Assembly: GCF_001187845.1 (NCBI RefSeq)
Contig: NZ_CP012160.1
Coordinates: 2,604,001 to 2,668,000, forward strand
Length of the DNA: 64,000 bases
Source of the DNA: Octadecabacter temperatus
Lineage (GTDB): Bacteria > Pseudomonadota > Alphaproteobacteria > Rhodobacterales > Rhodobacteraceae
Direction: 5' to 3'
Shown here piece after piece: positions 58,732 to 64,000 of this stretch. The translations under genes and the position numbers were made by a program. The notes beneath the pieces were generated by a model. It was not told where the DNA came from, did no database searches, and saw only the letters and a list, made by a program, of their open reading frames with translations. The first letter of the stretch is position 1. Each line of letters opens with the position of its first letter.

Positions 58732-59406
58732 TTACTTTTTGCGCCAGGTGCCAAGCCAACGGGAAACGCGCCCTTTGCGTTCAGACAGATCCGCACTCAC
58801 ATGGTCATACTGATCGCCGACCTTATCCGCCAACGGATCAACCGTGCGCTCTCTAAACTGCCGCCACATGGCACGCAAAAACAAGAACCCTGTAAGAAGC
58901 AATGCAAATATCAACAAATTCACCCACGGGAACGGGCGATAATCCTCGCTCTCGACTGGGCGAATAGACACGGCATTCGGATAAATGGACGCCCAGCGCA
59001 CGCGCCAGCCATAATGCGTTATCACGACCCATTGCTGCGGCTCGGACGTTGAAATGAGCGCCGCAGATTCCGCCTGCAAGTCAGAGCTATCGAACTTGAA
59101 ATACGGTGGGTAAATCCAACCTGTATCTTCATTTCGATACACCATCGTTTCGTTGCCGCCACGGATCAGTCCGAAAAAGTATGTCGCCTTGCGCTCGGTG
59201 TTGATCAGCCGCAAATCACGTGTCGGGTTTTCGACGGTGCCACTGTCAGCCTGCGCATAGAACATGCGGTTAAAGTTAGAGAAATCTGTGCGAATAATCT
59301 CGGTGGAGGTCACCCGTGCGACGTCGCGGTGCGGCATCACATAGTGCAGCCACAATCCGATGATCAAGAACAGGGCAATCCGAAGAATACGACGAGCGTT
59401 GCGCAT
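58732..59406 (-). CDS. DUF1523 family membrane protein
   Basis: 224 residues. A membrane segment at residues 7-24 (IALFLIIGLWLHYVMP) is followed by a soluble domain of about 140 residues and a second segment near 164-180 (PWVNLLIFALLLTGFLF). The family hallmark is the N-terminal VMPHRDVARVTSTEIIRTDF. The domain lies outside the cytoplasm, with a charged 40-residue C-terminal tail facing the cytoplasm. It is the last gene of the AAA+ operon, 11 bases after the 89-residue protein. Function is unknown. Confidence 0.75.
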   Translation of the reverse strand: MRNARRILRIALFLIIGLWLHYVMPHRDVARVTSTEIIRTDFSNFNRMFYAQADSGTVENPTRDLRLINTERKATYFFGLIRGGNETMVYRNEDTGWIYPPYFKFDSSDLQAESAALISTSEPQQWVVITHYGWRVRWASIYPNAVSIRPVESEDYRPFPWVNLLIFALLLTGFLFLRAMWRQFRERTVDPLADKVGDQYDHVSADLSERKGRVSRWLGTWRKK

Positions 59407-59417
59407 GATTATTGCTT

Positions 59418-59687
59418 TCAGTTGATGAAATAAATGATGGTGCCAACAACAATTGGCGGAATGACGTAGACCAGCAGGATCAGCTTCTTGCGAAGACCGC
59501 TCTCATACTTGGTCATGCCATCTTTGACAAAGGTCGCACGCATGTCTGGCGTTGCACCTTCGGGCGGATTCTCGTCCCACTCGTCTTCCAGCTTTTCGCG
59601 CCGGATAGAACGTGAATACAGCGTGATGCACAGGTACAGCACTGACAGGATCAGGAAGCCGAATACGACCAGTCTTACAAATTGCAT
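59418..59687 (-). CDS. small two-TM membrane protein of the AAA+ operon
   Basis: 89 residues. Two hydrophobic segments (residues 3-24 and 70-88) flank an acidic cytoplasmic stretch, REKLEDEWDENPPEGATPD, followed by KDGMTKYESGLRKKLI. No family was recognised. It starts 1 base after the DUF6638 stop, so it is cotranslated in this operon. The acidic loop could dock to the AAA+ ATPase; this is speculative. Confidence 0.6.
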   Translation of the reverse strand: MQFVRLVVFGFLILSVLYLCITLYSRSIRREKLEDEWDENPPEGATPDMRATFVKDGMTKYESGLRKKLILLVYVIPPIVVGTIIYFIN

Positions 59688-59688
59688 C

Positions 59689-61032
59689 TCATCTCCTCCT
59701 CACCGCACCCCAAGGACCAACCCGATCAATCAGGTCATCCTTCTTTGGCGCAGGCTCATCCATCGCCGCTTCGTGCCCAAACAACGCATCCCGCGTGCCG
59801 GCCTTATCCACCTGATACTCCGTTGACAAGAAATCCGCCACATAAGCCTTCTTTTCATCCGGCCAGCCCATATAGGCGCGGTAGAATGCTTCTTTGTGGC
59901 AAATGAACAGCTGACGCACGTCCATTGGCGACAGTTCAGCCAACAACATGTTCACCAAGTCCGCATCGGCATGGTCTTTGGCACGTAGCGTATAGAAATA
60001 CGCCGGATGCTCGCTATCAATGCGCGGCCAAGGTCCACCGTCTTCCGCCCAGCGCACCAAATCAGCGAGGCCCTGCCACGCAGCTGGCAGCTTGTCATGA
60101 TAGCGCCGTCCCAAATTGCGCAGGTCCCGTCGCGTGGCACCGGACAGGTCTTCACCTAATCCAGCCGCCACATCGGCAACCATGAAATCCATCTTCTGGC
60201 GTAGGATAGCCGCGCTATCAATGCCGCGTGCTTCCACGATCGGTTCGGCCAGATCGTTGACCTTCAGGAATTGCGCAATCGCGGATCGTTCATCCCCTTG
60301 AACAACCGTCTCAATCGGCAGCTCTCCAAGATCATCGTTACCGTTCATCACAATCGCTGCAGGCGCTTCAAGCGCGCGGAACACGTAGATCCCACCGAAA
60401 TGCGCCGTCCAGAAATTGTCCTGATCAAACGTCATCGTGTTCAGCTTCAGCGGGTTGCGGGTAATGTCGCCCGTGTCCTTGGCCAGCCCGATCATATTGC
60501 CGATCAACACATCATCACACCACGCATCGTCCTCGCGCATAAAGCGGTCAATCATCCCGCCAAGCTTCTTGGCAGAGGCCACCGCCCCGTCCGTCGTATC
60601 TGCCTCAATGTCCACATGGCGCACATCAAACAACCGCTTGGGTGTCTCAAGCGCATAAACCGAATTCACCAGCTCCCCCGCGACACCATCCCGCGCAGTC
60701 AACGCAAACAACTGCGCCTCATTGGTCTCAATAAACTGGCGCAATATCCCACGGCTGGTTGAGAACTTCGCATTGAGCAACGGCGCCGTCTTCTGCTCTG
60801 TCGTCAGCAAAATAAACTGCCGGTTCACCCCCGCATGGTTGAGGTACAAATCATCCCCCAACTCATCCCCGATCTCCGGCGAATATCCCGAAATATCGAT
60901 ATGAAAATCGCTGAGTTCGGTTTGTTTTCCAGTCAGGCGTTTAAGCGCACGGTTATAGCGCTCCACCAAAATGGGGCTCATCACAGGGATGAGGTTGCCA
61001 AACATTAGACCGCGAGAGATGAGGCGCTTCAT
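59689..61032 (-). CDS. DUF6638 family protein
   Basis: 447 residues, soluble apart from a weak hydrophobic N-terminus (MKRLISRGLMFGNLIPVMSP). It has no nucleotide-binding motif or recognised catalytic motif. It contains a Lys/Asp-rich C-terminal third ending DRVGPWGAVRRR. Its start overlaps the preceding membrane gene by 4 bases. This family is known mainly from Rhodobacterales beside the AAA+ gene and is functionally uncharacterised. A role as substrate adaptor or partner is inferred from operon position. Confidence 0.65.
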   Translation of the reverse strand: MKRLISRGLMFGNLIPVMSPILVERYNRALKRLTGKQTELSDFHIDISGYSPEIGDELGDDLYLNHAGVNRQFILLTTEQKTAPLLNAKFSTSRGILRQFIETNEAQLFALTARDGVAGELVNSVYALETPKRLFDVRHVDIEADTTDGAVASAKKLGGMIDRFMREDDAWCDDVLIGNMIGLAKDTGDITRNPLKLNTMTFDQDNFWTAHFGGIYVFRALEAPAAIVMNGNDDLGELPIETVVQGDERSAIAQFLKVNDLAEPIVEARGIDSAAILRQKMDFMVADVAAGLGEDLSGATRRDLRNLGRRYHDKLPAAWQGLADLVRWAEDGGPWPRIDSEHPAYFYTLRAKDHADADLVNMLLAELSPMDVRQLFICHKEAFYRAYMGWPDEKKAYVADFLSTEYQVDKAGTRDALFGHEAAMDEPAPKKDDLIDRVGPWGAVRRR

Positions 61033-61355
61033 ACCCGTTCTTTCTTAAATCTTAGGGCAAACCGCCCCAATAATCCGCCGAGCGTATACGACGAAACAAC
61101 CAACGCTGTGCGCCCCACGATAGCGCCCAATATGACTCTGTTTACGAGGTTTACGCTAAATTCGGCGTCCTGCTCACTTTCCGGCACGAAATTAGCCATA
61201 AAGATATCCTCTGGTGTCGACATCGTGGTGGACCACATCAAAAGACCGTACAACACAAGCATGATAATCAAGAGCCCGCCGCCCCACAAAGTTACCTGTA
61301 GCGACATTTTCCAAGCGACAAGAAACCCAACGGCAAAAATTGCCAAAGCAATCAT
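61029..61355 (-). CDS. small membrane protein of the AAA+ operon (three-TM)
   Basis: 108 residues with three hydrophobic segments: about residues 3-17, 23-42 and 76-97. Between the second and third is a polar stretch with STPEDIFMANFVPESEQDAE. The C-terminal tail is basic (RFKKERV). It starts 1 base after the neighbouring gene and overlaps the DUF6638 start. No family match was recognised. Confidence 0.6.
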   Translation of the reverse strand: MIALAIFAVGFLVAWKMSLQVTLWGGGLLIIMLVLYGLLMWSTTMSTPEDIFMANFVPESEQDAEFSVNLVNRVILGAIVGRTALVVSSYTLGGLLGRFALRFKKERV

Positions 61356-61356
61356 C

Positions 61357-61701
61357 TCACCATACCTCCTTCACCCAATTCTTCGGCACACCTGCCAGAC
61401 TCAAAACCATCAACGGCCCCCACAGCAACGCCGAAATCAAACTCAGTTTGGCGAAATGCACAGGAACGGACAGCCCGCCCGTCGCATACAAATCATCCAA
61501 ACTCACGCCCTCCGCGGAATACAAAAACGCAAAGAACCCAGCGCCGCAGACCGCCATCACCACTGTAGAAACCAGCGCCAACCCCAACAACCACTTCACC
61601 CCCTCAGGCCACCACAGCGCCAACACGCGCGGCACGGCCCAGCCCAGCATAGCGAGGGCCATTGCGGGCAGGATTAGCCCTGTGGAGAAGACCTCACCCA
61701 C
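61357..61701 (-). CDS. small membrane protein of the AAA+ operon (three-TM, GTG start)
   Basis: 114 residues with segments at about residues 8-25, 36-60 and 84-104 and a short loop with YSAEGVSLDDLYATGG. It starts with GTG inside the end of the preceding gene (8-base overlap), which suggests translation dependent on that gene. No family was recognised. Confidence 0.6.
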   Translation of the reverse strand: MGEVFSTGLILPAMALAMLGWAVPRVLALWWPEGVKWLLGLALVSTVVMAVCGAGFFAFLYSAEGVSLDDLYATGGLSVPVHFAKLSLISALLWGPLMVLSLAGVPKNWVKEVW

Positions 61702-62038
61702 TCTTGCGCTCCGTTTTCTCTAACCGCATGCCCCGCTGCAGCGTCCAATAGTCGTCCAGATTGATCGCCCAAGAAACAGCAGCAAACCCACCGACAACAC
61801 CTAAGACCCGAACGACCACTGCAACGAAGTCAACCAGTCCAAGCGCTCCACCCATTAAGGCCCATAGAAGTGGACCAATGCAGGCAATGCCCAGATAAAC
61901 GGCACAGGTGCGGTAGGTCATTTCTTTCATCGCAGACTGGCGCCCTAGTCGCCAGCCGATCAAGGCTAGCACAATCAAATAGAGTCCCGCCAGAAACGGA
62001 ACAACAACAAAAATACCTGCCCCAGCAGCGTGTCCCAT
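61694..62038 (-). CDS. small membrane protein of the AAA+ operon (four-helix)
   Basis: 114 residues. Hydrophobic segments lie at about residues 7-29, 46-66 and 69-92, and a basic tail ends RGMRLEKTERKSG. The start codon overlaps the AAA+ stop by one base (TAATG), the closest coupling possible. No family was recognised. The sequence is typical of an integral inner-membrane partner. Confidence 0.6.
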   Translation of the reverse strand: MGHAAGAGIFVVVPFLAGLYLIVLALIGWRLGRQSAMKEMTYRTCAVYLGIACIGPLLWALMGGALGLVDFVAVVVRVLGVVGGFAAVSWAINLDDYWTLQRGMRLEKTERKSG

Positions 62039-63972
62039 TACCCCTTACTCTCCAAATACCGCCGCTTGGCTTCCTCGGAACGCTCAAAGTCGCGCATCAT
62101 GTTTTCGATCGCCACCTCGTCGGATTTATCCGCATAGCGGAACTCTGAATCCGCGTAGCGGTTGATTTCCTGAATGACCATTTCAACGGTGATTGGCTTG
62201 CGCATATCGTTGATCATCGCCAGCTTGGTGTCGTAGTCCTTCGCCATGAACAGGTCAGGCGTTTCCATCCATTTGTCCGGTAATTCAAAGTCCATCGCGC
62301 GCACCTTAACGGCGTCCGTGATGTTCTTGATCGCACGCCCCGTAAAGCGTGGGTCAGCCTCTTGGATGCCTTTCAGATAGGTCCCGAGCTTGGCAATCGT
62401 GTCCAGTTCACCAATGTCGCTCGACACGCGATCAAACACGTTCATCAACCCAGGCTCATGCGGTTTGGAATGCCCTTCAAAGCTGGCAGCGACGGCCTTC
62501 TTGATTTCCTGCGCGCTGAACACTTCATGTTCGCCGACCGGAATATCGTGGTTCTTGCCCATCAACAGATACAGGATGTCGATGTAGTCATCCCGCGTCT
62601 GCGGGCCGTCGACAAGGAACCGCGCCCCTGCCCGCTGGCGCAGCGCATCGTCGACGTTTTCAGGATAGTTCGAAAACATCCCGAACGTGCAGTTGCCGCG
62701 CACGACCGTGTTGGCACCCGCAAAGCTTTCCATGAGCACGGCTGTAATCTCAAGCTGGCCCGCCGAAGATTGGCGATCGCCACGCTTCCCCGCTAGTTGG
62801 TCAATATCGTCAATCGTGCCAAAGCCGATAACGTTCGGATCAATCACGTTGTTGATAAACGCCTTGGCGTTCTGGCCTGATTTACCCTGATAACTGTCGA
62901 TATTGTCCGTCGAAAGATTCTGATACCGGAAAGGATAATCCGCGACCTTGCAGTACTCGGAGATCAGCCCTGCCATCATCTGGATCAGCGTAGTTTTACC
63001 CGTGCCAGGCGCACCATCCCCCATGAAGGTAAAGATAAAGCCGCCGAGTTCAGCAAACGGGTTCAGTTTGCGTTCAAAATCATAGGCCATGACCATCTTA
63101 GCCAGCTTCATCGCTTGATATTTGGCGATGTGGTTGCCGACGACCTCATTGGGTTTCTTGAACGTCATTGTAAGGGTCGACGACTTCGCCGCACTCGCAG
63201 GGCTGAACCCGCGAATGGTCAGATCATCGGATTCAACCTTCCAAGACGCATCAGAAAACGCAGCCAGCCGTCCAGCGGTGCTCGCGCGCGCCGCGACTTT
63301 CGCCATCAGCTGTTCGGCGTAAGCAAGTACCGTAGGTACAAGCCGCTCGTCACTATCAGAAAACAGCCCGATGTCTTGGTCCAGCTCCCACAACGCGCCG
63401 TGCAGGGCGAGCGTTGAATTGTCGCTCAGCACCTCTTCGACTTCACCAACTTCAACCGTTTCCTCGCCTGCATGGGACGCCAATAGGAAGGACGTGGCAT
63501 TGCCAAAGACATACAGCACCGCGAGGGCCTCTGCCGCGAGCAGTTCGGAAAACTCAGTTTTCTTTCCCGCTGCCAAAGACCCTTCAAGGTTAGCGCGTTT
63601 CAGATCCGCCAACCCTGTGCGGTCGCTAAATTGCTCACCCACGGCCAGTGCAATCGCCAAGGCGCGGCGCAGCCCATGCTGTACGCTGGCCTGCGTAGGC
63701 GACGTCAGTCCATCGCCATCATCAGCCGCCTCAATACGCGCCGCCAGTTGCACCCCTTCAGTGCGCGCCGTAGACCGTGTTACCAGACCGAGCGTCGTCG
63801 TGCGAAACCGTCGCCGCGTGCCGATCCCGCTGGATTTCTCAGGCGCAGCGACCTCTTTGGTTTCCGCAATACGGGGCGTGTGATCAAAGCCCATGACCAT
63901 CGCAGTCGCAGCTTCGTAATGCTTTGCGATATCTTCCTCGCGCAGCTCCATCGTGTCACTAGTTTGGCTCAT
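62038..63972 (-). CDS. AAA+ ATPase heading a membrane-protein operon
   Basis: 644 residues. A long N-terminal region (residues 1-310, mostly helical, with low similarity to known domains) precedes an AAA+ core: Walker A GAPGTGKTT at 320-328, Walker B VIGFGTIDDID at 381-391, sensor-1 asparagine in GMFSNYPENVDD (N435) and an arginine-finger region LRQRAGARFL at 444-453. The C-terminal lid includes FTGRAIKNITDAV, with a likely sensor-2 Arg. It has no signal peptide, so it acts in the cytoplasm at the membrane if it works with its neighbours. GAGGACG lies a few bases before the ATG. Confidence 0.8.
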   Translation of the reverse strand: MSQTSDTMELREEDIAKHYEAATAMVMGFDHTPRIAETKEVAAPEKSSGIGTRRRFRTTTLGLVTRSTARTEGVQLAARIEAADDGDGLTSPTQASVQHGLRRALAIALAVGEQFSDRTGLADLKRANLEGSLAAGKKTEFSELLAAEALAVLYVFGNATSFLLASHAGEETVEVGEVEEVLSDNSTLALHGALWELDQDIGLFSDSDERLVPTVLAYAEQLMAKVAARASTAGRLAAFSDASWKVESDDLTIRGFSPASAAKSSTLTMTFKKPNEVVGNHIAKYQAMKLAKMVMAYDFERKLNPFAELGGFIFTFMGDGAPGTGKTTLIQMMAGLISEYCKVADYPFRYQNLSTDNIDSYQGKSGQNAKAFINNVIDPNVIGFGTIDDIDQLAGKRGDRQSSAGQLEITAVLMESFAGANTVVRGNCTFGMFSNYPENVDDALRQRAGARFLVDGPQTRDDYIDILYLLMGKNHDIPVGEHEVFSAQEIKKAVAASFEGHSKPHEPGLMNVFDRVSSDIGELDTIAKLGTYLKGIQEADPRFTGRAIKNITDAVKVRAMDFELPDKWMETPDLFMAKDYDTKLAMINDMRKPITVEMVIQEINRYADSEFRYADKSDEVAIENMMRDFERSEEAKRRYLESKG

Positions 63973-64000
63973 AAATACGTCCTCAAATCTATTTGTAACT

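Follow-up and report, generated by a model that had tools for sequence, protein, structure and literature searches.

A conserved four-gene cassette with a classical AAA+ ATPase and a DUF6638 protein in Octadecabacter temperatus and its relatives

What holds an AAA+ ATPase, a DUF6638 protein and a row of small membrane proteins together in one operon? The question is raised by the window studied here, a stretch of 64,000 nucleotides from Octadecabacter temperatus (NZ_CP012160.1, positions 2,604,001-2,668,000; the genome comprises 3.26 Mb in two contigs). A preliminary description of the window had reported a set of seven genes without described function and had suggested a membrane-remodelling or complex-assembly machine. 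A conserved AAA+ gene set is indeed present, but the seven genes are not the conserved unit. That unit is CC–p377–AAA+–DUF6638, where CC is a coiled-coil protein and p377 a protein of 377 amino acids (aa). We propose, with a probability of roughly 0.4, that these four constant parts form a dedicated AAA+ remodelling machine, one copy of which lies mostly within the window; its target would be CC, and its site possibly the inner membrane.

The conserved unit

The window edge cuts the operon, leaving just 28 bp ahead of the AAA+ start codon. In the corresponding genomic locus (L004; window position = L004 position + 63499), three more genes run in the same direction upstream of AAA+, namely p377 (gap of 16 bp), a gene for a 105-aa protein (overlap of 23 bp) and CC (gap of 9 bp). 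In total, the operon comprises ten genes that run in one direction, none of them separated from the next by more than 16 bp, and a divergent open reading frame (ORF) begins beyond CC at L004 3087. The CC start is probably the ATG that gives 358 aa, which matches the relatives. The four core genes are as follows.

65427-66503 (L004 1928-3004), minus strand: CC, 358-aa coiled-coil protein, core gene 1 of 4, outside the window
63989..64000, minus strand: final 12 bases of p377, 377 aa, core gene 2 of 4; the gene runs to 65122 (L004 490-1623)
62038..63972, minus strand: AAA+ ATPase, 644 aa, core gene 3 of 4 (ORF, Pfam, motifs)
59689..61032, minus strand: DUF6638 protein, 447 aa, core gene 4 of 4 (ORF, Pfam, AlphaFold2 model)

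Gene order was compared in 21 loci, our own and 20 that matched DUF6638; of these 20, the same family supplied 15, one rhizobium-like genus three, another family of the class one and a genome outside the class one. CC, p377, AAA and DUF6638 occurred in that order in all 21 of these loci, which had been chosen by their DUF6638 match; the membrane-protein genes tm89 and DUF1523 were present in 17 and 18 of them, respectively. Beyond the phylum, the searches covered named genomes, plasmid records, phage records and viral contigs. A scan of named genomes for CC yielded at least 588 encoding stretches, and the best 80 were kept, mostly from Rhodobacteraceae genera or uncultured Rhodobacteraceae. 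The exact series CC–p377–AAA–DUF6638–tm89–DUF1523 was found in 72 of these best 80; six of the remaining eight carried one to three of the genes before a contig end, and two had split or doubled ORFs. The closest CC among the best 80 of at least 588 was that of Octadecabacter algicola (95% identical).

Searching 72,556 plasmid records with AAA by tblastn gave ten matches (Sinorhizobium, 4; Vibrio, 4; Shinella, 1; Rhizobium, 1), and the four matched Vibrio records were 882–939 kb in size. All four plasmid records that were opened (Vibrio records of 882 and 925 kb and single records from Sinorhizobium meliloti and Shinella) contained the core four, as did two further rhizobial genomes (G551 and G575). 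Because a genome outside the class (G050) carries the six-gene set with a CC that is 71% identical, the sequences suggest that the cassette has been transferred between classes.

Joint presence was assessed in two samples, 398 genomes of the phylum, searched with an AAA profile and a CC profile, and 149 genomes of the window's family, taken to be Rhodobacteraceae. The AAA profile matched 26 of the 398 phylum genomes, and a full-length CC was present in all 26; the CC profile matched 30. Three genomes of one genus (G043, G107 and G253) contain a divergent CC (100–145 bits) without AAA, and p377, AAA and DUF6638 were not found beside it in the fetched loci. These lone CC genes (L217:9213-10286, L218:8982-10181 and L219:9422-10495) seemingly lie at the site of the rhizobial cassette, as judged by eye from the ORF starts of nearby formate–tetrahydrofolate-ligase-like and choline-transporter-like genes. 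A further CC match, which falls within a 974-aa frame of G279 (E 2e-4), probably arose by chance.

In the family sample, DUF6638 was present in 69 genomes and CC in 65; both were found in 64, and one alone in six. DUF6638 without CC was seen in five genomes: in G341, G402 and G440 contig ends cut the locus, G390 (77% complete) has 3.2 kb upstream of DUF6638 without AAA, and G441 retains a DUF6638 remnant, its last 57–59 residues. CC without DUF6638 occurred in G439 alone, where a contig end cuts the locus. Counted among the 64 is the decayed locus of G364, in which CC and DUF6638 are fragments and AAA and p377 were not found; in some others of the 64, the pieces are partial or lie on separate contigs. 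In the compared loci the four core genes keep a fixed order, and in the sampled genomes they are present or absent jointly. The cassette seems to be gained or lost as one block upstream of tm89–DUF1523, since the remnant in G441 adjoins an intact tm89–DUF1523 pair and since DUF1523 loci free of the cassette exist.

The seven genes are therefore not the set conserved in relatives: two of the four constant genes lie beyond the window and the accessory genes vary. Chance tight packing of unrelated genes, without a common system, fits the accessory genes in part, since neither tm89–DUF1523 nor the majority of the small membrane genes is bound to the remaining genes. As an account of the whole operon it is very improbable, as the core four keep their order and co-occur across families and classes.

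The core proteins

The AAA+ protein consists of an N-terminal part of about 300 aa without a Pfam match, a motor core, and a C-terminal lid and tail. The only model to pass its cut-off was Pfam AAA (PF00004; residues 320-453, E 2.6e-11, 44.5 bits against a cut-off of 21.2). The preliminary description had called the N-terminal part unrecognised and the ATPase core intact, with Walker A and B, sensor-1 Asn and arginine fingers, and both statements hold. The motifs are Walker A GDGAPGTGKTT, a pore-loop-like SYQGKS, a Walker-B-like GTIDDID, sensor-1 FSN, LRQR and a sensor-2-like TGRAIKN; their assignment to functions follows general knowledge of AAA proteins. Among 81 non-redundant AAA sequences, YQGKS, the sensor-1 N and LRQR were present in all 81, the sensor-2-like GR in 79, Walker B in 77 and Walker A in 76. 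The two pattern-lacking sequences that were inspected (L214 and L215) show conservative changes. Judged by its profile match and these motifs, the AAA+ protein is a classical AAA with conserved threading-motor motifs, and the system rests on a known motor class.

The nearest PDB sequence relatives of the AAA+ protein are FIGL1 (fidgetin-like 1), an i-AAA domain, Vps4 and katanin; in an alignment-based PDB search, the i-AAA domain alone passed 1e-3. Vps4 has an N-terminal MIT domain and a Vps4 C-terminal domain. Neither was listed for the AAA+ protein at E up to 10 (the filters drop most matches above 0.1), and neither MIT nor another known N-domain was recognised by Pfam. The operon has in common with the MoxR/RavA-vWA and ClpX systems an AAA+ gene accompanied by helper genes. 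The preliminary description had held that a MoxR- or ClpX-type ATPase would speak against a new system, but neither the Pfam nor the NCBIfam matches with E up to 10 include such a family.

The best PADLOC match of the AAA+ protein was TRIP13 (E 7.4e-6, residues 319-459), and IetA matched as well; both matches are weak. They raise the question of whether the cassette is a conflict system, directed against phages or otherwise, in which the AAA+ protein would be a TRIP13-like effector regulator. Its patchy presence (CC in 65 of the 149 family genomes), the apparent gain and loss as a block and its presence on large Vibrio plasmids would agree with such a role. On the other hand, PADLOC listed nothing up to E 1 for the other six window proteins (its scan did not include the three upstream genes), and there is no recognisable effector. 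Moreover, AAA had no match in 50,697 phage records or in viral contigs, where CC had one relative, CC is strongly conserved (76% mean column identity), and the neighbours are metabolic. We regard a conflict system as improbable.

The identity of the DUF6638 protein was confirmed by a full-length Pfam match (PF20343, E 8.3e-238, profile positions 1-439 of 439). Its AlphaFold2 model is confident (predicted local distance difference test, pLDDT, 86.3; predicted template-modelling score, pTM, 0.82), and the model as a whole, whose single domains were not searched apart, had no significant PDB or viral fold match. The model may thus represent a new fold. DUF6638 was not mentioned in the PMC literature searched. 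p377 had no Pfam match, and its best PDB sequence match (E 0.2) was not convincing.

CC is most conserved at residues 221-285. The AlphaFold2 model of an orthologue (L103) is all-helical, with a long predicted hairpin of helices 117-190 and 194-279 followed by a last helix at 286-352; its confidence is moderate (pLDDT 71.9, pTM 0.53).

Accessory and neighbouring genes

All seven window genes reported earlier were found as ORFs, tightly packed on the minus strand; from AAA+ to DUF1523 the junctions are an overlap of 1, an overlap of 8, a gap of 1, an overlap of 4, a gap of 1 and a gap of 11 bases. The four small proteins described as membrane proteins have three, three, three and two hydrophobic segments in a simple hydropathy scan, from which all counts of transmembrane (TM) segments given here are taken. 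DUF1523 was confirmed by Pfam (E 6.2e-60). Beside the core, the operon contains the following genes.

65100-65417 (L004 1601-1918), minus strand: 105-aa protein with one hydrophobic segment, outside the window
61694..62038, minus strand: 114-aa accessory protein, three predicted TM segments (ORF, hydropathy scan)
61357..61701, minus strand: 114-aa accessory protein, GTG start, three predicted TM segments (ORF, hydropathy scan)
61029..61355, minus strand: 108-aa accessory protein, three predicted TM segments (ORF, hydropathy scan)
59418..59687, minus strand: tm89, 89 aa, two predicted TM segments, paired with DUF1523 (ORF, hydropathy scan)
58732..59406, minus strand: DUF1523 protein, 224 aa, two predicted TM segments (ORF, Pfam, hydropathy scan)

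Among 110 compared loci, relatives of tm89 were found in 90, of the 61357-61701 protein in 45 and of the upstream 105-aa protein in two; the 61694-62038 and 61029-61355 proteins had relatives in none. DUF1523 was present in 130 of the 149 family genomes and is therefore not specific to the cassette. We fetched 18 loci for their DUF1523 from genomes without a CC match, so that DUF1523 itself is no finding there. None of the core genes was found in any of these 18 loci, and tm89 adjoined DUF1523 in 13. At least one flanking ORF in 13 of the 18 belonged to a family that flanks the cassette in at least 17 of 80 loci, a count that was read from a printed table, includes widespread enzymes such as aldehyde dehydrogenases and serves as a rough guide. 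The tm89–DUF1523 pair is a neighbour that also stands without the cassette, and the rhizobial and Vibrio cassettes compared lack it.

A membrane protein gene directly follows DUF6638 in the window's family and in the rhizobia, and it is a different one in each. In the rhizobia it encodes a DUF2333 membrane protein (six of seven loci, four of them checked with Pfam); in the seventh locus (L220), no DUF2333-like ORF met the cut-offs.

A few neighbourhoods deserve separate mention. In a genome of another family (G262), the cassette and DUF1523 are followed downstream by a PspA/IM30 family gene (L066:3599-4615) and a YiaAB-domain gene; in the O. temperatus genome the PspA gene is located elsewhere, away from the cassette. 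The circular Vibrio plasmids NZ_CP062152.1 (L213) and NZ_CP015514.1 (L216), of 882 and 925 kb, carry, apart from the cassette, genes annotated as secA, mfd and RNase H family members, an unusual housekeeping-type load for a plasmid. AAA and DUF6638 are separated in the S. meliloti Ak57 record by a gene with an endonuclease domain and an ISRm16 (IS4-like) transposase gene (L214:14106-15851). This record is labelled pSymB, yet it contains trp and cho genes, which we take to be chromosomal.

A proposed machine and a cytosolic alternative

How might the core proteins work together? The co-occurrence of the core in fixed order, the conserved threading-motor motifs and the features of CC lead us to propose a hexameric AAA+ motor with CC as the protein that it pulls. 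The AAA+ protein would form a hexamer, grip the C-terminal part of the long helical CC and pull it at the expense of ATP, whereby CC assemblies would be dismantled or rearranged. p377 and DUF6638 would be adaptor or clamp proteins that select the substrate or the site. The site itself, a less supported part of the proposal, would be the inner membrane, reached via clade-specific membrane proteins: the 3-TM proteins and tm89–DUF1523 in the window's family, and DUF2333 in rhizobia. Such a machine would work like PspA/ESCRT-III plus Vps4-type systems without belonging to them.

The parallel has a basis in gene neighbourhoods. Like the ESCRT-III/Vps4 and PspA systems with associated classical AAA+ ATPases in the passages available from a gene-neighbourhood study (PMC11237479), the present locus pairs a classical AAA motor gene with a gene for a long all-helical protein and has membrane genes nearby. 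Those passages also give MIT as a Vps4 feature, and they do not mention DUF6638 (PMC11237479). The present system differs in that the AAA protein lacks the MIT and Vps4 C-terminal domains, CC has no Snf7 or PspA_IM30 match, and there are two extra constant proteins, p377 and DUF6638. With the neighbouring membrane genes, the likeness to the PspA/AAA and ESCRT neighbourhoods in these passages makes action at a membrane plausible (PMC11237479). A bolder version, in which an undescribed machine with ESCRT/Vps4-like logic from unrelated parts serves inner-membrane upkeep, its threading motor disassembling a helical-hairpin CC polymer by a C-terminal handle under the control of DUF6638 and p377, neither of which has a recognised relative of known fold, appears unlikely.

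A lead towards a grip of the motor on the C-terminal part of CC, though no proof, comes from the CC tail. A C-terminal motif, picked after the sequences had been viewed, is present in 107 of 107 CC proteins from cassette or contig-cut loci, mostly close relatives, and in none of the three, all of one genus, from genomes without AAA. When compared with the rhizobial CC of L068, residues 286-325 were 15–22.5% identical in the three AAA-less proteins and 37.5–45% in AAA-accompanied ones (Vibrio and three others outside rhizobia).

Several results weigh against the proposal that the AAA+ protein remodels CC at the membrane, beginning with the way in which the tail motif was chosen and the narrow range of the proteins compared. 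Over residues 326-362, the AAA-less proteins (22–32%) and two AAA-accompanied ones (27% and 35%) are not separated, and residues 1-105 of the AAA-less proteins (18–23%) have diverged nearly as far as 286-325. CC persists without AAA in one genus and may therefore have a separate role. The fold matches of the CC model (Foldseek, VIA) are generic helical proteins. CC had no match to PF04012 or Snf7 in Pfam up to E 10, and hhalign against PspA was not significant, with a probability of 1.4–1.9% and a score of 22.5–23.0, slightly higher than the 17.2 of a reversed control. TelA, a tellurite-resistance (Ter) protein, is helical, cytosolic and linked to membrane stress genes. CC is predicted to be helical too, but its profile comparison with TelA (PF05816) was not significant (probability 0.3–0.6%, score 18.8–21.8, against 16.5 for the reversed control), nor was there a Pfam match; as a yardstick, the unrelated pair p377 and TelA scored 28.3. 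A TelA gene above the Pfam cut-off lies elsewhere in the O. temperatus genome (G000:C1:833227-834219). Finally, no TM segments were predicted in CC, p377, AAA+ or DUF6638 by the hydropathy scan, and the gene after DUF6638 in the Vibrio loci is mfd. From the original suggestion of a membrane-remodelling or complex-assembly machine, the conserved AAA+ system stands, and the membrane role is inferred only.

Because the core proteins are predicted to be soluble and mfd comes next in Vibrio, a cytosolic switch is a close rival, possible though doubtful. TRIP13/Pch2 act on HORMA proteins, and CbbX/RavA open or activate clients of their own. Similarly, the AAA+ protein could open or activate p377 or DUF6638 as its client, with CC as a scaffold and the membrane genes as bystanders. 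It shares with TRIP13/Pch2 the PADLOC match described above, its best one, and the sensor-2-like GR motif, whose likeness to TRIP13 we assume. The Vibrio loci, without a membrane gene directly after the cassette, and the differing membrane genes between clades also favour a cytosolic switch. What speaks against it is the membrane gene directly after DUF6638 in both the window's family and the rhizobia; in addition, no HORMA profile was found by Pfam in the ten operon proteins, and DUF6638 has no significant fold match. The AAA+ protein also differs from TRIP13/Pch2 in its unmatched N-terminal 300 or so aa.

The set is widespread, occurring in 64 of 148 sampled genera of the window's family and in several rhizobia. 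It is small, its members co-occur, and it is present in the tractable S. meliloti, which makes its role open to direct tests. Should the CC tail be the handle of the motor, the remodelling machine proposed here would be an independent solution to the problem that Vps4 and ESCRT-III solve.

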